Source: an uncultured Chlorobiaceae bacterium
GTDB taxonomy: Bacteria; Bacteroidota; Chlorobiia; Chlorobiales; Chlorobiaceae
Direction: 5' to 3'
NCBI GenBank assembly: GCA_903824295.1
Contig: CAIJWE010000120.1
Span: 1-35,714 of the forward strand
Length of the DNA stretch: 35,714 nt
A program made the position numbers and the translations under genes. This document shows, piece after piece, positions 22,946 to 32,710 of this stretch (position 1 is the stretch's first letter; each line of letters begins with the position of its first letter). The notes under the pieces are model-generated. The model made no database searches, was not told the DNA's origin, and saw only the letters and a list, made by a program, of their open reading frames with translations.

Positions 22946-25687
22946 TCAGACCGGGAGCTGATAGCGTTTTTCGCGAAACAGGCGGAGCAAAGCATCAACC
23001 ACTTCCGGGTCAAATTGCTGCACCCGATAGGTCTCAATTTCTTGAAGGGCTGCATCAAGGCCAAGGGCGGGTCGATAAGGGCGATTTGAGGCCATAGCTT
23101 CAAGCACATCGGCTACGGCAATGATGCGTGCTTCAATAAGTATCTCCTCTCCTTTCAGCCCCCGCGGATAACCGCTGCCGTCCATACGCTCGTGGTGCTC
23201 CCGGATGATTTCTGCAATTGGCAGAGGGAATTTGACATCCTTGAGGATTTGATAACCGTGTTCAGCATGAGTCTTGATGAGCTCAAACTCGATTGCTGAC
23301 AACTTACTCGGTTTGGAAAGTATCTCGGAGGGTATGCTCATTTTGCCAATGTCGTGCACCAATCCGATGAGGTGGAGCGTGTCGCTCTTCTCTTGACACC
23401 ACCCCATTTCCAGGGCTATATCCCTCGCAAGGATACCAACACGCCATTCATGACCTGCGGTGTAGGGATCATGGGCTTCCACGACTTTTGCAATTGCCCG
23501 GAGCGTGCTATGCATTGCGTTTTCCAACTGTTTTACATAGTCCCTTATCTTTTCTTCTGTAATTTTACCTTCGCTAATGTCTCGAGCGGTGACTACCGAG
23601 CCAACGATACAACCTTCCCTGTTGCGTATAGGGGCATAGTTGTAGCTTGCAAACCATGTTTCACCGCTATCCTTTCGCAGCAATCTAAATTGGTGTTCTA
23701 TACCGGCTTCACCTCGCAGAGCCCTCTGCACAGGCCAATGATCAACCGGAACAAGTTCTCCCGTCATCAGGTAGAGGTCGAGAAACTCTGGGTACTCATC
23801 AACCGTTTTGGCACACTCCTCCTTGTTTCTGAACCGGTGAACGGTTGAGAAGGCATCATTATAGTGGGTAACGTTTCCCTTGGCATCGGAGATAATAACG
23901 GAATCGCTCATATTGGTGAGAGCTGCTTCCAGTATTGACTTACCTTCTACAATCAAATGTTCTGCCTGCTTGCGTTCGGTAATGTTATCGAAGACGGCAA
24001 CAAAGTAGTCTTTTTGAACACTGTAGACAGAAATGTCAACCCAGATCATCAATGGTACGACGTAAAGCTCCATTCGTTCAGGTTGACCCGTTCTTGCAAC
24101 CCGTCCATAGATTTCAAGAATCTCAGGTTGTATTTGATGGATTCCCGGGATAAGCTCTGAAACTCTTTTGCCCTCAACCTCTCTCAGCCCGGTAATTTTT
24201 TCGAAGCTTGGGTTTACCTGTTCATAGATAAAATCAACCGGACGACCCTCTTCGAATATCATTCGGCAATAGGCAATGCCGTTGAGCATGTGGCCAAAGA
24301 GTGAACTGAATCGCTCATTACTTTCGAGAATCAGTTTTTCAGCAATCTGCTGATCGTTTATGTCCTCAATAGAGGCATAAATAAGTTCTTTCCCTTCAAT
24401 GATAATCCTGTTAATGGTTATTTCAACATCACGGATCAAGCCATCAGCCCGTTTGTGCTTTCGTATAATTCTGTTGAGTTTCGATGTTCCGACTTTCTTT
24501 GCATCATCCAGCAGGTTATCAACTGTTGATACAGAGATTTGTTCTGCCTGCATCAATTGACGTTCTTCAATCGTCCAACCATAAAACTTTGCAGCGGCAA
24601 GGTTGGCAGCCACGATATTGCGCGTAAGGGGATTGACAACCAGCATGATGGAGGTGTGGTTGTCAAAAAGCACCTTGAAGCGTTCTTTCTGTTTCTTGAG
24701 TGATTCTTCTGTATGCTTTTGTTCAGTGATATCAATAACCGTACCAATATAACGATTCACCTCTCCCTGTTTGTTGCGTAAAGGCTTGCCTCGGGACATG
24801 ATCCAGTGAACAGAACTGTCAGGATAACAGACCCGATATTCAACACTCATTTTTTGAGCTTTGTCAGCAGCTATTTGAACAGCCTGGATGGTGATCTCCC
24901 GGTCATCAGGATGAATCGTATCTGACCAGAGTTTGAACGATGGTTTTTCACAATCCTTTTTCAAACCGTACAAAGACCATAACTCGTCGGACCAGATATT
25001 TTCATTGGTTTTTAAATCCCATTGCCAAACACCAGCCTGTGCAGCTTCAAGAGCCTGCGTAAATCTGTTTTTACTCTCAAGGAGCTCCTCATCTATGCGT
25101 TTCTGCTCCGTGATATCCGAGAAGAGAATAACCAGGCTTGCATGTTCAGTCTCACTTGCTGCCGCTTCAATGCGAAAGGTGCGAAGAGAGTGAGCCGGAG
25201 GCTGGTCGGGAAGCGGAGGCAAAAGCCTCACCTCGCAGTTACCACGCACACTTTTAACGATCACGGTTTCGAGCAGGGTATCAATTGCGCAATAATCCTC
25301 TGGCAAAACAAATTGTTTAAAATGCATACCAATCAAGCTGGAGCGATCAACTCCAAGCAGCCTGGAGGACGTGAGATTCGCTTGCTCAATTTTGCTGTCC
25401 CTGCCCAAAGTCAAATAGCCGACTGGTGCAAAGTCATACAGTTCAGTGTACATCGTAAGACTTTCTTTCAGCTCAATCTTGCTTTGAGCCTGCTCTTTCT
25501 GCAGCATTTCAAGCTCTGTGTGGAGAACCTCCAGTTCATGGACAAACTCAGGCGTTGCTTCGGGTGACGGCGTCGTGCCAAGACTGGAATGCCGAGCGGT
25601 AAGGTCTTGTTTCTTCAGGCGATCTTCAGCAAGAGAGCGCAGCTCAGAAGGTGTGCCAGGGTTGCTATGCGGCTGCTTTTTTGCCAT
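22946..25687 (-). CDS. multi-PAS HD-GYP protein (c-di-GMP phosphodiesterase type)
   Basis: The 913-residue protein has no membrane segment. After a short coiled coil (about 45-85) come about five PAS modules (roughly 95-205, 215-330, 335-445, 455-570, 580-705) and a C-terminal HD-GYP domain (about 715-910). The HD pair is His778-Asp779 in VHDIGKMSIPSE, and HHERMDGSGYPRGLKGEE holds the GYP signature (839-841). HD-GYP enzymes hydrolyse c-di-GMP to pGpG/GMP and often control motility, adhesion or stress responses. The first, third and fourth PAS modules and the coiled coil resemble those in the divergent GGDEF protein at 25858, and the HD-GYP domain closely resembles the one at 30678. Start ATG at 25687 has a poor ribosome-binding site. 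It is transcribed away from the Kai cluster, with 170 bases between. Confidence 0.9.
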   Translation of the reverse strand: MAKKQPHSNPGTPSELRSLAEDRLKKQDLTARHSSLGTTPSPEATPEFVHELEVLHTELEMLQKEQAQSKIELKESLTMYTELYDFAPVGYLTLGRDSKIEQANLTSSRLLGVDRSSLIGMHFKQFVLPEDYCAIDTLLETVIVKSVRGNCEVRLLPPLPDQPPAHSLRTFRIEAAASETEHASLVILFSDITEQKRIDEELLESKNRFTQALEAAQAGVWQWDLKTNENIWSDELWSLYGLKKDCEKPSFKLWSDTIHPDDREITIQAVQIAADKAQKMSVEYRVCYPDSSVHWIMSRGKPLRNKQGEVNRYIGTVIDITEQKHTEESLKKQKERFKVLFDNHTSIMLVVNPLTRNIVAANLAAAKFYGWTIEERQLMQAEQISVSTVDNLLDDAKKVGTSKLNRIIRKHKRADGLIRDVEITINRIIIEGKELIYASIEDINDQQIAEKLILESNERFSSLFGHMLNGIAYCRMIFEEGRPVDFIYEQVNPSFEKITGLREVEGKRVSELIPGIHQIQPEILEIYGRVARTGQPERMELYVVPLMIWVDISVYSVQKDYFVAVFDNITERKQAEHLIVEGKSILEAALTNMSDSVIISDAKGNVTHYNDAFSTVHRFRNKEECAKTVDEYPEFLDLYLMTGELVPVDHWPVQRALRGEAGIEHQFRLLRKDSGETWFASYNYAPIRNREGCIVGSVVTARDISEGKITEEKIRDYVKQLENAMHSTLRAIAKVVEAHDPYTAGHEWRVGILARDIALEMGWCQEKSDTLHLIGLVHDIGKMSIPSEILSKPSKLSAIEFELIKTHAEHGYQILKDVKFPLPIAEIIREHHERMDGSGYPRGLKGEEILIEARIIAVADVLEAMASNRPYRPALGLDAALQEIETYRVQQFDPEVVDALLRLFREKRYQLPV

Positions 25688-25857: not shown

Positions 25858-28407
25858 TTGAGCATAACAGGAACAGTGATCTATCCTGTCAACATCCAAG
25901 CCGACGATGGTATTGCCCTCAAGCAAGGCTATGCCGCTGCAAAGGTATTGTTCAAGAGAATTGTAAAAAAAAGCGTAAATTCCGTAAGATATTTGTTCTA
26001 TTGTCTGTGCACAAGCAAAAACATAGCGGTGAAAAAAAACATTAATCATGCAGATAACAACGCTTCCGATTTGCTATGCAGCGCTGAAAATCGTCTGCAG
26101 GAAGAGCTTAAAAACCGATCAGATCTATCTTCCTCATCCAGGGATGCTGTTCTGTTGTTTCAGGAGCTTTTGCTTCTCTGCAGAGAGCTTGAAGCGCAGA
26201 GAAAAAAGCTTTGTCAATCGAGAGAGCGGACCAAAAAGAGTCTGAAGCGCTACAGCGATCTGTATACTTATGCGCCTCTATGCTATTTGTCGCTGGCGCC
26301 GAATGGCAGGATACTCAAAGCCAATCGTTTTGCGGCCAAGATGTTCGCTCTTCGTCGCTCCTTCTTGATCGGAGAACGTTTTGACCGCTTTATTGTGCCC
26401 GCAGACACCCCCGTCTATAATACCCTGATGGAGCGTGCCTGTAAAAGCAGAAAGCATGAATATGGTGAAATCAGCCTTTTAGGTGGTGACGCCTTGCCCT
26501 CGCGTCATCGAAAGTTCTGTCTGGATGTCATGGTCGCCGATGACGGGAAAGAGTATCTCATGATACTTTCTGACGTGACCTACAAAAAAAAGGTCATTCA
26601 GGATTCCCTGACCGTGCTCACCGAAAGAGACGCCCATCATGTCAATGTCATCAACATGATTCGGAACGGTTACATTTTTGCCCGTGTGGTTTATGAAAAT
26701 GAAAAAGCGACTGATTTTGTCCATGAAGAGGTCAATCCTGGCTATGAGAAAATAACCGGACTCAAGAATGTCATTGGAAAGAAAATAACGGAGGTTTTTC
26801 CTGATGTAAGGCGCACTCAGCCTGAATTTATCGATAAACACCTCAGAGTATCCGAAACAGGGGATTCCGATCGGTTCACGATCTACCTTGAACCTTTGCA
26901 TAAATGGTTCGACATCTCGGTCTACAGCCAGAAAAAAGGCTTTTTCTTTGCGTTAATCGACGACATCACCGATACCAAGAATGCAGAAATAAATTTGAAG
27001 ATAAGCGAGCAGCGGTTCAGAAACATGTTTCAGGAGCATTCAGCCATTATGCTGCTCATCAATCCCGATAGCGGGTTCATTATAGAGGCGAACAGTGCCG
27101 CTACCAGATTTTACGGATGGTCGATCGAAGAGCTCCGGACTATGCGAATAGAGGAAATCATTAGCCGGACACCCGAAGAGATCAAATTTTTTTTGGAGAA
27201 ACGCTGGACAGAAGACAACAACCAGCCTCTCTATCGTCATCGCAGGGCAGACAAATCCCTTCGGGATGTTGAGGTCTACAGCAGTACCATGGTCATAGCT
27301 GGCGAAACGCTGCGCTATACTGTTGTCCATGACATTACCGAGCGGCTGCGTCACGAAATTGCCACAGCATTCTACATCTCCCTTCTGGAAGTCATCGATA
27401 CCTCGACGATAAAGCAACTTCTGCAGATGTCGATTGATAAAGCCGAATTGCTTACCGACAGTTCCATCGGTTTTTTTCACTTTGTTGACGATGACCAGAG
27501 CATGCTCACGCTGCAGCAATGGTCAACCAATACCTTAAACGTGATGTGCAAAGTAAAGGGAGACGATAATCATTATCGTGTCGATGAGGCCGGCGTCTGG
27601 GCCGATGCCCTGCGGGAAAGAAGGGTTATTATCCACAACGATTTTGCCTCACTCCCAAGTCGAAAAGGATTGTCGGAGGGCCATGCGACTGTTATCAGGG
27701 AGGTGATTATTCCGATTTTTCGTCATGAAAAAATTGTTGCAATACTTGGCGTTGGCAATAAGCTTGTAAATTATGATGAGGATGACGTTAGATTGCTTAC
27801 TATTGTTGCCGATGCAGCATGGGAAGTTGCTGCAAAAAAAATCGGTGAGGAGGAACGCATAACACTGCTCGCCCAGCAATGCCTTGTTGAGCAACTCGCC
27901 ATGCACGATTCATTGACCGGTTTGCCGAACCGGCGTCTCCTCTCAGAGCGTATAGCGCTAAGCCTGGCCCAATGTCGACGGAACAAATCCATGGCAGCCT
28001 TGATGATGTTTGATTTGGACAAATTTAAACCGGTCAACGATACCTTTGGTCATGCTGTCGGCGATATAGTGCTGCAGCAAGTGGCAACGCGCACTTTGGA
28101 AATCCTGCATCGAAGCAGTGATTCCATTGCCCGTCTCGGCGGTGATGAGTTTGTTCTTCTTATGCCGCAAATAGACGCAATATCGAATGCGGTTGCCATT
28201 GCCGAAAAAATCCTCAACAAGATAAGAGAACCGTTCATCATCGAAGGTCATACCATCAATATCTCATGCAGTATCGGTATCGCAGTTTTCCCTGATCATG
28301 GCGAAAACGAACTGACGCTGATGAGGCATGCTGACGATGCCATGTATAGTGCGAAAAAACAAGGGAGGGACAATGTAAAGGTATTTGAAGCCCTCGCAAT
28401 CCCATGA
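25858..28407 (+). CDS. PAS/GAF-containing diguanylate cyclase (GGDEF)
   Basis: The 849-residue soluble protein makes c-di-GMP by its C-terminal domain. Domains: an N-terminal coiled-coil region (about 85-125), three PAS modules (roughly 130-250, 265-375, 380-500), a GAF domain (about 505-665) and GGDEF (about 680-845). The active-site GGDEF (761-765) is intact, preceded by RSSD exactly five residues before it, the product-inhibition I-site (RxxD). DSLTGLPNR, DLDKFKPVND and SIGIAVFPDHG complete the domain. The start is uncertain: TTG 25858 has a fair ribosome-binding site (25844-25850), no ATG occurs before the first PAS module, and GTG 26029 is an alternative that drops 57 residues of unremarkable sequence. 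Its PAS modules resemble those of the divergent HD-GYP protein. It precedes kaiC on the same strand by 135 bases. Confidence 0.88.
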   Translation: MSITGTVIYPVNIQADDGIALKQGYAAAKVLFKRIVKKSVNSVRYLFYCLCTSKNIAVKKNINHADNNASDLLCSAENRLQEELKNRSDLSSSSRDAVLLFQELLLLCRELEAQRKKLCQSRERTKKSLKRYSDLYTYAPLCYLSLAPNGRILKANRFAAKMFALRRSFLIGERFDRFIVPADTPVYNTLMERACKSRKHEYGEISLLGGDALPSRHRKFCLDVMVADDGKEYLMILSDVTYKKKVIQDSLTVLTERDAHHVNVINMIRNGYIFARVVYENEKATDFVHEEVNPGYEKITGLKNVIGKKITEVFPDVRRTQPEFIDKHLRVSETGDSDRFTIYLEPLHKWFDISVYSQKKGFFFALIDDITDTKNAEINLKISEQRFRNMFQEHSAIMLLINPDSGFIIEANSAATRFYGWSIEELRTMRIEEIISRTPEEIKFFLEKRWTEDNNQPLYRHRRADKSLRDVEVYSSTMVIAGETLRYTVVHDITERLRHEIATAFYISLLEVIDTSTIKQLLQMSIDKAELLTDSSIGFFHFVDDDQSMLTLQQWSTNTLNVMCKVKGDDNHYRVDEAGVWADALRERRVIIHNDFASLPSRKGLSEGHATVIREVIIPIFRHEKIVAILGVGNKLVNYDEDDVRLLTIVADAAWEVAAKKIGEEERITLLAQQCLVEQLAMHDSLTGLPNRRLLSERIALSLAQCRRNKSMAALMMFDLDKFKPVNDTFGHAVGDIVLQQVATRTLEILHRSSDSIARLGGDEFVLLMPQIDAISNAVAIAEKILNKIREPFIIEGHTINISCSIGIAVFPDHGENELTLMRHADDAMYSAKKQGRDNVKVFEALAIP

Positions 28408-28542
28408 CAGGCATGATGGTTATTATCTGTTTTCTCTACCGGGAAGATAAATAATGGGATGCTCAAAAGCCGTGAAGGGAGGTCGTATCAAGAACATGTT
28501 ACCGCATTCTGGTCAATTGAAATCATGAAGCTGAAATACAGT

Positions 28543-30303
28543 ATGGCAAAAGCAAAAGAAAATCTGAAACCAAAGTTGACGGCGGAACAGAGGCCGCAGC
28601 TTCCCAAGGCGTTAACAGGGATTGAAGGATTAGATATCATTACCGAGGGCGGCCTGCCGAAGGGCCGGGCGTCACTCATTTGCGGAGGAGCAGGTACCGG
28701 AAAGACGTTGCTTGCCATGGAGTTTTTGCTCAGAGGTGCAACGCAATATGATGAACCCGGCGTCTTGATGGCGTTTGAAGAATCGACCAACGATCTGATC
28801 ACCAATGTCGCCTCAATCGGCTTTGACCTGCATGGGTTGATTGCAAGCAAAAAGATTGTTGTCGATTTCGTTTATATCGATCGAAATGAAATAGTTGAAG
28901 CTGGAGAGTACAACCTGGATGCCCTGTTCATCCGATTGAGTGCCGCAATTGATTCCATTGGCGCCAAACGCGTCGTCCTTGATACCATTGAATCACTCTT
29001 CAGCAACCTGCCCAATCCTGCCATTTTGCGTGCTGAATTGCGCCGTCTGTTTTTTTGGCTCAAGGAGAAGGGTGTTACAGCGGTCATTACTGCAGAAGGC
29101 GGCACCGACACCCTTTCCCGTCACGGTATAGAAGAGTACGTTTCTGACTGTGTGATTAAAGTAAGTGTCAGCATTGAGGAACGGGTTGCTTCACGAAGAT
29201 TACGTATTGTGAAATATCGCGGCACATCGCACGGCACCAATGAGTTTCCTTTCCTTATTGATGGAAATGGCATTTCTCTCATACCAATTACTTCTTCAAG
29301 TCTGGAGCACATAGTCTCAACGACGAGAGTTTCCAGCGGCATCCAAAGGTTAGACGCTATGCTTGGAGGCAACGGGTTCTTTGAGGACAGCGTCATCATG
29401 ATTTCCGGTTCGCCCGGCACGGGTAAGACCACCTTTATGGCACATTTTGCGGATGCAGCCTGTCGGCGCAATGAGCGCGTTGTCTATTTTTCCTTCGAGG
29501 AGTCGTCGGATCAAATCAAAAGAAATATGAGTTCGGTTGGGTTAAACCTCGACCATTGGGTAAAAAAAGGTCTTCTGGTCATGGAATGCAGGAGGATTAC
29601 CCAGTATGGGCTGGATATGCATTTGCTCCTGGCTCAAAAACTGATCGCCGAGCACGCCCCCAAAGTTGTCATCATGGATCCTGTTACAAGCTTTGATGAT
29701 ATTGCAAACACCAGTGACGTCAAAAGAATAGTCATGAAGTTTGTTGACCTGATGAAATCTCTTGGCATCACGATCATGTTTGGCAGCTTGACGCCGAGTG
29801 AAGTGCAATCAGATAGTTCCTCAATTAATATATCATCAATCATTGATTCATGGATTTTATTGAGGGATCTTGAAAGTAATGGGGAACGAAGTCGTACTAT
29901 CTTTGTTCTCAAGTCACGCGGCATGAGCCACTCCAATCAGGTTCGGGAATTTTTGATGACAGATCACGGCGTTGAAATATGTGATGTTTATATCGGCACA
30001 GGCGGGGTTGTAACAGGTGGAGCTCGCCTGAATATGCTGGCTCAGGAAAAGACATTGGCTCTTAAATTGCAGGAAGAGATAGAGCTTCGGCAATTTGATC
30101 TGGAAAACAAGCGGAGTGTTTTAGATTCCAGGATCGCGGCCATGCGAGCTGAATTCGCTGCCCAGGAAGCCAGCAATCTCAAAATGATTGCCCAGGAAAA
30201 AAACGCTCAAACGCAACTAAACCAGGACCGAATTGCAATGGGGATGGCACGTAACGCTGATAAACATAATGCGCCGTTAAAAGCCAAAAGGAAATCAAAA
30301 TGA
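28543..30303 (+). CDS. kaiC: KaiC-family double-domain ATPase
   Basis: The 586-residue protein has two RecA-like domains. CI carries Walker A GGAGTGKT (Lys54) and the catalytic Glu pair in FEES (79-80); CII carries GSPGTGKT (Lys295) and FEES (319-320). Both sites look active. Where cyanobacterial KaiC has phospho-sites Ser431-Thr432, this protein has Ser431-Ser432 in NISSIIDSW, at the same numbers when started at 28543. After the core there is an ~85-residue charged coiled-coil tail (from about 500, LAQEKTLALKLQEEIELRQF onward), ending in lysines, as in non-cyanobacterial KaiC types. The frame is open to ATG 28459; ATG 28543 is chosen because it leaves the usual ~25 residues before GIEGLD. 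kaiB follows after 36 bases; no kaiA is present. Autophosphorylation is plausible but unproven. Confidence 0.93.
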   Translation: MAKAKENLKPKLTAEQRPQLPKALTGIEGLDIITEGGLPKGRASLICGGAGTGKTLLAMEFLLRGATQYDEPGVLMAFEESTNDLITNVASIGFDLHGLIASKKIVVDFVYIDRNEIVEAGEYNLDALFIRLSAAIDSIGAKRVVLDTIESLFSNLPNPAILRAELRRLFFWLKEKGVTAVITAEGGTDTLSRHGIEEYVSDCVIKVSVSIEERVASRRLRIVKYRGTSHGTNEFPFLIDGNGISLIPITSSSLEHIVSTTRVSSGIQRLDAMLGGNGFFEDSVIMISGSPGTGKTTFMAHFADAACRRNERVVYFSFEESSDQIKRNMSSVGLNLDHWVKKGLLVMECRRITQYGLDMHLLLAQKLIAEHAPKVVIMDPVTSFDDIANTSDVKRIVMKFVDLMKSLGITIMFGSLTPSEVQSDSSSINISSIIDSWILLRDLESNGERSRTIFVLKSRGMSHSNQVREFLMTDHGVEICDVYIGTGGVVTGGARLNMLAQEKTLALKLQEEIELRQFDLENKRSVLDSRIAAMRAEFAAQEASNLKMIAQEKNAQTQLNQDRIAMGMARNADKHNAPLKAKRKSK

Positions 30304-30339: not shown

Positions 30340-30675
30340 ATGAGTGATAAACCAATTGACTTAAGAGCGCATAAAAAAACCGACACGGCGAACGATCCCT
30401 CCAATAAATGGCTTTTACGGTTGTATGTGGCCGGAACTACCGTACATTCAGTGTTGGCTATTACCAATATCAAGAGGATTTGTGAAGAAAAACTGGATGG
30501 GCGGTACGTTCTTGAGGTGATTGATCTGTATCAGCAGCCTCTGTTGGCTGCCGGTCATCAGATCATTGCCATCCCGACACTCATCAAAGAGCTTCCCCCT
30601 CCTCTACGCCGTATTATCGGCGACCTGTCAGATACCGAGAAGGTACTTGTCGGTTTGGATTTGAAACCGTTATAA
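30340..30675 (+). CDS. kaiB: KaiB-like protein
   Basis: The 111-residue protein is a KaiB homologue. After a ~20-residue charged leader it has the thioredoxin-like core typical of KaiB: LRLYVAGTTVHSVLAITN, then CEEKLDGRYVLEVIDLYQQP, then IPTLIKELPPPLRRIIGDLSD and VLVGLDL. In cyanobacteria KaiB switches fold and binds the CI ring of phosphorylated KaiC, antagonising KaiA. Without KaiA here, its role would be to report or modulate the state of KaiC. The extended N-terminus distinguishes it from the ~102-residue cyanobacterial protein. It starts 36 bases after kaiC, with AAGG upstream of the ATG, and its stop lies two bases before the next ATG, so the three genes are tightly coupled. Confidence 0.93.
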   Translation: MSDKPIDLRAHKKTDTANDPSNKWLLRLYVAGTTVHSVLAITNIKRICEEKLDGRYVLEVIDLYQQPLLAAGHQIIAIPTLIKELPPPLRRIIGDLSDTEKVLVGLDLKPL

Positions 30676-30677
30676 CG

Positions 30678-31844
30678 ATGAAAGCTGCATTGAAATCCAA
30701 AGCAGAACTCTCCCGGGAAGTAGATGAGTTGCGCACTGCATTGCAGGAAGCTCAAGCAACCCTGAATGCCATTCGCGAGGGTGCTGTTGATGCTTTTGTG
30801 GGTTCCGGTACGTCTGGTGAGCATATTTACTCTCTGTCCAATGCTGACCAACCCTATCGGATATTGCTTGAGGAGATGAGTGAAGGCGCCCTGACCCTGA
30901 CGCCTGATGGTCTTATTTTATTCTGTAACAAGCGGTTTGCTGAGATGGTGAGCTCTCCCCTGAACATGGTGATTGGCAGCAACCTTCAAATCTGGGTTGA
31001 TCCTGAATATCGAACGATTCTTGAATCGCTCATGAACATGGATGCTACCGCAAAACATCGCGGTGAATTGCTGTTGGTTACCAACGATGGAGATCGACTC
31101 CCCATTTATATTTCGATTGGTAACGTTCATGTTGGCAAAGAGGCTGATATTTATTGTCTTGTAGCTACCGACCTTACCGAAGTCAAGCAGATCGAGGAGA
31201 TCGTCGCCGCTAAAAAAATGTCACAAGCTACGTTAAAAGCATCTCATGAACTGCAGCAGAGCCTGGAAGAGTCAATCAAAGCGATAGCCAATACGGTCGA
31301 ATCCCGCGATGAATATACTGCCGGCCACATGCGTCGTGTTGGGCAATTGGCCCCGGCGATTGCAAGGGAGTTGGGCTTATCGGAAGAGACTATCCATGGT
31401 ATTGAGCTGGCCTCAACTATTCATGATGTAGGGAAGATCAGTATTCCGATTGAAATTCTGACTAAGCCGGCAAAGCTCAGCAAAATCGAATATCTGTTGA
31501 TTCAAACCCATGTCGAGGCAGGCTATGACATTATGAAAAATATTGTATTTCCATGGCCGATTGCTCTTCTCATCTTGCAGCATCATGAAAGAATGGATGG
31601 AAGCGGATATCCGCAAGGACTGAAGGGTGAAGATATCTTGCTTGAGTCGAGAATTATTGCGGTGTCAGACGTCATTGAAGCTATGGCGTCTCGTCGTCCT
31701 TATCGCGCCGAGCTTGGGATTGATGCCGCACTGGCAGAAATCAAGCAAGGCCGTGGAACTCTTTATGACCAAACTGTCGTGGATGCTTGCGTAAGGCTTT
31801 TTGAAGAAAAAAGGTTTTCTTTTGCCCCAAAAAGCACTTTTTAA
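30678..31844 (+). CDS. PAS-HD-GYP protein (c-di-GMP phosphodiesterase type) in kaiBC unit
   Basis: The 388-residue protein begins with a coiled coil (about 5-35, SREVDELRTALQEAQATL) and a segment (IREGAVDAFV, then IYSL) that I recognise from the N-termini of sensor kinases found beside kaiBC in other bacteria. A PAS domain (about 60-170) follows, then HD-GYP (about 190-380) with His249-Asp250 in TIHDVGKISIP and GYP at 310-312. The output is therefore a c-di-GMP phosphodiesterase instead of a kinase. The HD-GYP domain is closely related to that of the protein at 22946. It starts two bases after kaiB, implying translational coupling and a functional link to KaiB/KaiC. No membrane segment is present. 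No strong terminator is seen behind it. Confidence 0.9.
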   Translation: MKAALKSKAELSREVDELRTALQEAQATLNAIREGAVDAFVGSGTSGEHIYSLSNADQPYRILLEEMSEGALTLTPDGLILFCNKRFAEMVSSPLNMVIGSNLQIWVDPEYRTILESLMNMDATAKHRGELLLVTNDGDRLPIYISIGNVHVGKEADIYCLVATDLTEVKQIEEIVAAKKMSQATLKASHELQQSLEESIKAIANTVESRDEYTAGHMRRVGQLAPAIARELGLSEETIHGIELASTIHDVGKISIPIEILTKPAKLSKIEYLLIQTHVEAGYDIMKNIVFPWPIALLILQHHERMDGSGYPQGLKGEDILLESRIIAVSDVIEAMASRRPYRAELGIDAALAEIKQGRGTLYDQTVVDACVRLFEEKRFSFAPKSTF

Positions 31845-31959: not shown

Positions 31960-32598
31960 TCATGAAAACGGATCAAACTCTGCTTTTGAGGCAAAGCAGA
32001 CCGGGCAGCTCCACTGGCAGGACAGCTCAACAAAGGGAGTGCCCTCCTTTATCCAGCTTTCAGGATCACCTTCCGCCGGATCATAGAGGTAGCCGCACTC
32101 CCGGCACATCCAGGTATTGGATTCACACTTGTTCAGGGCTGTTCCATCCTCAAGAAGCTTTCTGAAAACCACCATCTCTGACTGAGCAAAGCCCTGCGCC
32201 CGGTAAAATTGCTGTGCCGCCTCGTTATTGCGGTCGGTGAGGAGCGTGATGCGGCCGAATCCCTCGCTGCGGGCAAAATCCACAGCGTGATTGATCAGCA
32301 GGGTGCCGAGCCCCTTGTTGCGCCATGCAGGCGCAACAACCATATCTTCAAGCAAGGCGGCTTTTCGGCCAAGAACGGTACTTACCGTAAAAAGGAGCAT
32401 CACCATCCCTTCAATCACTCCATCAATTTCAACAACAAAGATCCTGCCCATTTCCGGGTTACGGATGATCATCGAGAGCGCTCGCGACTGCGCCTCAGCA
32501 TCAGGGTCAAACTCCTGCTCCTGAGCGAACAGGATTCCCAGAAGCTCGGCACACCTCGCCACATCACGCTCTTCAACTGTTCTTGTTGCGGGTATCAT
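31960..32598 (-). CDS. GNAT acetyltransferase fused to C-terminal rubredoxin domain
   Basis: The 212-residue protein has two parts. Residues ~1-150 are a GNAT acetyltransferase: LLEDMVVAPAWRNKGLGTLLI is the acetyl-CoA pyrophosphate loop (R/Q-x-x-G-x-G/A type), followed by LLTDRNNEAAQQFYRAQGF. Residues ~160-212 are a rubredoxin domain with WMCRECGYLYDPAEGDPES, then GTPF and WSCPVCFASKAEF, giving the four iron-binding cysteines (CxxC...CPxC). Rubredoxin is normally a separate ~52-residue electron carrier; the linker here is only about ten residues. The frame is also open from a GTG at 32604, two codons upstream. Neither the acetyl acceptor nor any redox partner is apparent from the neighbours. 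It is convergent with the kai unit across 115 bases. Confidence 0.85.
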   Translation of the reverse strand: MIPATRTVEERDVARCAELLGILFAQEQEFDPDAEAQSRALSMIIRNPEMGRIFVVEIDGVIEGMVMLLFTVSTVLGRKAALLEDMVVAPAWRNKGLGTLLINHAVDFARSEGFGRITLLTDRNNEAAQQFYRAQGFAQSEMVVFRKLLEDGTALNKCESNTWMCRECGYLYDPAEGDPESWIKEGTPFVELSCQWSCPVCFASKAEFDPFS

Positions 32599-32710
32599 GG
32601 TCACAACTTATGCTCTTTTATTAAAATATTCTACCCTTTCACAAGGTTCATACATGCCATCAAGTTCATGATCATTCCTTGAGATTTCAAAACTTTTTTT
32701 GTGCAACGGC

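Follow-up and report, generated by a model that had tools for sequence, protein, structure and literature searches.

Genes for kinases or for proteins with GGDEF/EAL domains were described behind kaiC–kaiB by De Luca et al. (2011, PMC3164672), whose text makes no mention of HD-GYP. A PAS protein has been noted in the kaiBC operon of R. sphaeroides (PMC6627678), and the R. sphaeroides kinase has been considered a possible redox input (Schmelling et al. 2017, PMC5520375). In R. sphaeroides KaiC, two hexamers are held together by the C-terminal tail, which shifts with phosphorylation (PMC10076222). Work on cyanobacterial c-di-GMP (PMC13001216) contains no kaiBC–HD-GYP operon of the type found here.

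The window, meaning the whole stretch of 35,714 nucleotides analysed, makes up contig C120 in a genome of 2.85 Mb. Among named relatives, those nearest to the locus are Chlorobium and Chlorobiaceae MAGs, and the source is treated here as Chlorobium sp. Its kai region contains the following genes:

22946–25687, minus strand: multi-PAS HD-GYP gene, the divergent neighbour (Pfam, BLAST, profile search)
25858–28407, plus strand: PAS–GAF–GGDEF diguanylate cyclase gene (Pfam)
28459–30303, plus strand: kaiC (Pfam and NCBIfam, tail alignment)
30340–30675, plus strand: kaiB (Pfam KaiB, E = 4.4e-26)
30678–31844, plus strand: PAS–HD-GYP gene, 388 residues, ATG start, last of kaiC–kaiB–PAS-HDGYP (open reading frame; Pfam PAS_9 and HD_5)

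From the GGDEF gene to the PAS–HD-GYP gene, consecutive genes are separated by 51, 36 and 2 nt. The kaiC product contains two ATPase domains; its CII phosphosite is Ser-Ser, and it ends in a C-terminal coiled-coil tail of about 100 residues, which aligns with that of R. sphaeroides KaiC. The GGDEF motif of the cyclase gene is intact and accompanied by an RxxD site (motif check); lying 51 nt 5' of kaiC, this gene is a probable partner of the kai cluster. The N-terminal helix and first PAS of the cyclase are similar by eye to those of the divergent HD-GYP gene (…LYxxAPxxYLxL), as if cyclase and phosphodiesterase listened to one partner. A scan of the window for promoters and terminators gave a result no better than shuffled sequence. 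On the other side of the cluster, 31960–32604 on the minus strand is a single open reading frame for a GNAT acetyltransferase with a C-terminal rubredoxin domain (Pfam).

The sequence-only reading had placed a PAS–HD-GYP gene at 30678–31844 and held that a phosphodiesterase domain replaces the kinase half seen in relatives. Pfam bears out both points, finding PAS_9 at residues 70–168 (E = 3.7e-6) and HD_5 at residues 202–367 (E = 2.4e-36). No HisKA or HATPase_c is found by Pfam in the protein; HD_5 stands where relatives have these domains, so the protein is a variant of the kinase module and not a kinase. Its parts are as follows:

30699–30848, plus strand: kai-linked pre-PAS element, residues 8–57 (alignment, AlphaFold2 model, element-only profile search)
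30849–31172, plus strand: PAS domain, residues 58–165 (Pfam, AlphaFold2 model)
31176–31307, plus strand: long signalling helix, residues 167–210, joining PAS and HD-GYP (AlphaFold2 model)
31281–31778, plus strand: HD-GYP domain (HD_5 E = 2.4e-36, residue check, PDB matches)

The AlphaFold2 model, of one chain only, has a mean pLDDT of 82.7, with lower values of 63–70 per block of ten residues in the hairpin region. In it, the pre-PAS element is predicted to form a single helix (residues 8–33) followed by a β-hairpin with strands 39–44 and 47–52, and the segment IREGAVDAFV (32–41) runs from the end of the helix into the hairpin. Alignments give the element the signature AIRxGxVDALVV…YTL, with the PAS domain next. 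The window protein scores 77 bits against the 55-residue profile of the element, itself being among the rows of that profile.

All metal-binding and catalytic residues of the HD-GYP domain are present (Glu208, His217, His249, Asp250, Lys253, His278, His302, His303 and Asp331), comprising the HD, HDxGK, H, HH and D ligands, with the GYP motif at residues 310–312. The standard ligands are invariant in all seven short-form proteins of this kind, and the domain is predicted from these residues to be an active cyclic-di-GMP phosphodiesterase. Among PDB sequences it matches a 3'3'-cGAMP phosphodiesterase most closely, and cGAMP is a possible alternative substrate. The divergent neighbour has an HD-GYP domain 59% identical to that of the PAS–HD-GYP protein (BLAST), and the kai-linked element is absent from it in a profile search. 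An origin of the HD-GYP domain in this neighbour is unsupported, the corresponding identities being 79% for a Burkholderiaceae copy and 65% for genome G430.

We consider it probable that the protein encoded at 30678–31844 is an output protein of the KaiB–KaiC timer. Its N-terminal helix and β-hairpin would form a conserved element that docks on the KaiB–KaiC complex, KaiB being the likelier partner. The bound state would be relayed through the PAS domain and the long signalling helix to the predicted active HD-GYP phosphodiesterase, such that the state of KaiC sets the rate of cyclic-di-GMP breakdown. Physical contact of the element with KaiB or KaiC, the direction of control and enzymatic activity are what we infer here; within the protein, the front end is the strongest candidate for reading the clock.

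Linkage of the module to kaiBC was surveyed with two queries, residues 1–180 (178 in Chlorobiaceae) for the whole module and residues 3–57 for the 55-residue pre-PAS element. The sample comprised 72,556 plasmids and more than 1,200 genomes from Chlorobiota/Bacteroidota and Pseudomonadota. The profiles were built from Chlorobium first and later widened with their own matches; kai genes played no part in finding these. Profile searches, limited to scoring the best candidates in each genome, underlie the census, while one contig scan with very specific patterns concerns six loci only. The census counts clusters that carry the module (46 distinct ones, 45 measured together plus Falsirhodobacter), and some KaiBC systems may do without it. 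A further cluster, in G502 (L133), was excluded because its kaiB is damaged and part of its module is deleted. Among the 45, L123 and L144 have equal match scores and are probably from near-identical species.

In all 46 clusters the module lies directly 3' of kaiC–kaiB(–kaiB) on the same strand; the distance from the kaiB stop to the module start is −15 to +47 nt in 44 of them and 248 nt in the other two. The sequence-only reading had likened the front end to the input half of kaiBC-linked kinases and expected most relatives of residues 1–180 to be kinases beside kaiBC, which holds: about 35 of the 46 proteins are histidine kinases (HisKA, HWE and hybrid; Pfam and similarity), and whole-module matches in kinases reach profile E-values of about 1e-24 to 1e-50, far above chance. 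Ordinary PAS matches from the same searches start mostly around residue 50, with scores of 20–70 bits.

The pattern recurs at each taxonomic level. Among 86 Chlorobiaceae genomes a full-length module match occurs in six, with kaiB directly upstream in each. Two other Chlorobiaceae genomes have kaiB fragments only; in one relative, G052 (G052:C20:1-400, L148), the GGDEF–kaiC–kaiB order survives as a decayed remnant, with pieces of all three genes inside 400 nt of a kai locus that is decaying. The phylum (394 genomes) added 21 whole-module matches with E < 1e-23, all 3' of kaiC–kaiB(–kaiB), and every whole-module match above 100 bits in 398 Pseudomonadota genomes is also 3' of kaiC–kaiB. Among 385 Alphaproteobacteria the element alone matched five proteins (four of them new; E = 1e-17 to 1e-21), all behind kaiC–kaiB(–kaiB) and with no weaker matches down to E = 1e-4; 180 Burkholderiaceae yielded three matches, including one new one. 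Plasmid matches were confined to Pararhizobium, Rhizobium, Cereibacter and Falsirhodobacter, and in the one plasmid checked per genus the gene adjoins kaiB (4/4).

Such conserved adjacency could reflect co-expression alone. The element might be a cap for dimerisation or folding of the PAS domain, kept by travelling with the operon and making no contact with Kai proteins. Coiled-coil caps made of a helix before a PAS domain are common, and the operon seems to pass from phylum to phylum, the KaiB and HD-GYP of a Burkholderiaceae cluster being 81% and 79% identical to those of the window. A generic cap, however, would be expected away from kai genes too, and the element was found on no PAS protein away from kai genes in the sampled genomes or the 72,556 plasmids. 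The hairpin signature is also more conserved than the PAS domain that it would cap. We regard a mere cap as decidedly unlikely.

The Burkholderiaceae contig (L149 with L122, G394:C23) carries a Chlorobium-like kaiC–kaiB–kaiB–PAS-HDGYP cluster, and its identities to the window suggest transfer between the Chlorobium and Burkholderiaceae lineages. A mis-binned Chlorobium contig is an unlikely origin for it, the identities being too low and the other genes on the contig speaking against it. Several gene N-termini on this contig resemble receptor genes of the tripartite-tricarboxylate type, which are common in Burkholderiales.

Within the module, the kai-specific part is the stretch of about 50 residues before the PAS domain, as judged from alignments and searches. 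In pairs with divergent PAS domains, mean identity is 43% in the pre-PAS stretch and 29% in the PAS domain, and the former is the more conserved in 372 of 385 pairs (which are not independent). The kinase of L139 keeps the element and has a different PAS domain. The PAS domain itself is rejected as the kai-specific part, as matches starting from about residue 50 are ordinary PAS proteins; for two of these the surroundings were read and contained no kai genes. The sequence-only reading had taken the N-terminal region, a coiled coil followed by the PAS domain, as the likely Kai-facing input; this is supported, with the refinement that the kai-specific part is the pre-PAS stretch, the PAS domain alone finding ordinary PAS proteins. 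The element stays constant across HisKA, HWE and hybrid kinase, GGDEF–EAL and HD-GYP outputs.

These data also bear on whether signals run the other way, with the protein as a timer input. The PAS domain would then be a sensor of light, redox or a ligand, the N-terminus would signal to KaiB–KaiC, and the HD-GYP domain would be a second effector. PAS domains are the usual sensors, and Foldseek matches of this one include the PAS domains of LOV, FixL and DosP proteins; for the kinase of the R. sphaeroides kaiBC operon, a role in conveying redox information to KaiBC has been proposed (PMC5520375). Against this, the PAS domain is the less conserved half and is replaced in L139, and an output that varies beside a constant Kai-linked part fits a flow of signal from Kai to output. 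An input role is thus unlikely in our estimation.

KaiB is present in every cluster with the module, and all but three have a KaiC with a long C-terminal coiled-coil tail. The helix of the element might therefore pair with this KaiC tail and not with KaiB, and in R. sphaeroides KaiC a register shift of the tail signals the state of phosphorylation (PMC10076222), which would suit such a role. Three Bacteroidota clusters (L077, L084 and L085), however, keep the element next to a tail-less KaiC, and we therefore reject the tail as sole partner. Docking to the tail in place of KaiB is quite unlikely, and KaiB remains our preferred partner in the output mechanism proposed above.

The remaining outputs are enzymes of c-di-GMP turnover, apart from two clusters whose output is not visible (L070, which is short, and L127, at a contig end). 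The short PAS–HD-GYP form occurs in seven of the 46 clusters, six from Chlorobium and one from Burkholderiaceae. One cluster, in G462, has a GGDEF–EAL output and is a mirror image of the window, with HD-GYP 5' of kaiC and GGDEF–EAL behind kaiB. Another, in G430 (L125, 4910–7755), has a long module–PAS–GAF–HD-GYP protein split by a frameshift inside GAF, either a sequencing error or a broken gene. The kinase of G539 was assembled from two contig ends (L129 and L130).

In the module tree, which is unrooted and has weak deep branches, the seven short HD-GYP proteins form one clade (100/100) and G430, G462 and G470 a separate one (100/100); c-di-GMP enzymes were thus probably joined to the module at least twice. 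A swap of output with the input kept, as claimed from sequence, is supported and probably happened more than once. As to its direction, the wide distribution of kinases makes it likely that the kinase came first and HD-GYP later.

A GGDEF gene flanks the cluster, upstream or downstream and in the same direction, in five of the six Chlorobium clusters. In four Chlorobium clusters a GGDEF gene lies just 3' of the PAS–HD-GYP gene (L061, 7414–8754; L062, 7321–8691; L063, 7441–8787; L065, 4048–5214), a position at which the window has none; the GGDEF proteins of the first three have an N-terminal CHASE3 domain (Pfam). KaiB-positive Chlorobium genomes contain 3–6 GGDEF and 3–9 HD-GYP matches each. 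HD-GYP genes occur in all eight KaiB-positive Chlorobiaceae versus 16 of 78 others (Fisher p = 1.4e-5, kinship ignored), an association to which the kai operon itself supplies one HD-GYP. A search of 12 Chlorobium genomes for PilZ receptors found none.

A wider claim, to which we give even chances, is that the helix–hairpin of about 50 residues is a transferable adaptor, connecting KaiB–KaiC timers outside the cyanobacteria to whichever signalling enzyme follows it and, in Chlorobium, to cyclic-di-GMP turnover. If so, it would be unrelated to the solutions found in SasA and CikA, and in Chlorobium the timer would be plugged into this turnover through a cyclase and a phosphodiesterase whose genes surround kaiBC. 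A short constant element with a changing output would be the place to look for transfer of time from non-cyanobacterial KaiBC timers, and the HD-GYP version would be a readout that needs no phosphotransfer partner. Binding would be readily testable, as the element is present in the C. sphaeroides system with solved KaiB–KaiC structures: an HWE kinase behind kaiBC on plasmid pB of Cereibacter sphaeroides 2.4.1 is a member of the module family, and this comparison locus matches PDB entries 8dba and 8fwj.

The HD-GYP version and the shared element signature appear undescribed in the searchable literature, subscription papers aside. Among structures, PmGH (PDB 4mcw) and DvhD (PDB 9rc0) share the HD-GYP fold and motifs with the window protein, and in DvhD a PAS domain likewise precedes HD-GYP; unlike the window protein, they are not reported with kai genes, and the sequence match starts at query residue 175, leaving out the kai-linked element. 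The cyanobacterial clock output kinases SasA and CikA are similar in their way of working, each placing a clock-reading domain on a signalling enzyme. In SasA this is a KaiB-like thioredoxin domain and in CikA a pseudo-receiver. The window protein, with its predicted helix–hairpin–PAS and HD-GYP, has neither the thioredoxin-fold N-terminus nor the HisKA/HATPase of SasA, and by Pfam is without the GAF, histidine kinase and pseudo-receiver domains of CikA. The GGDEF/EAL genes of De Luca et al. (2011) are, as here, c-di-GMP enzymes directly 3' of kaiBC, but make and/or break c-di-GMP through GGDEF/EAL, whereas the window protein has HD-GYP only. The timer itself resembles the R. sphaeroides type, a tailed KaiC with an adjacent kaiB being present in both. 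The kaiBC-operon histidine kinases of Pseudomonadota and Bacteroidota share with the window protein the gene order, the helix–hairpin element and the place of the PAS domain, and differ from it in output, which is a histidine kinase in these proteins and HD-GYP in the window.
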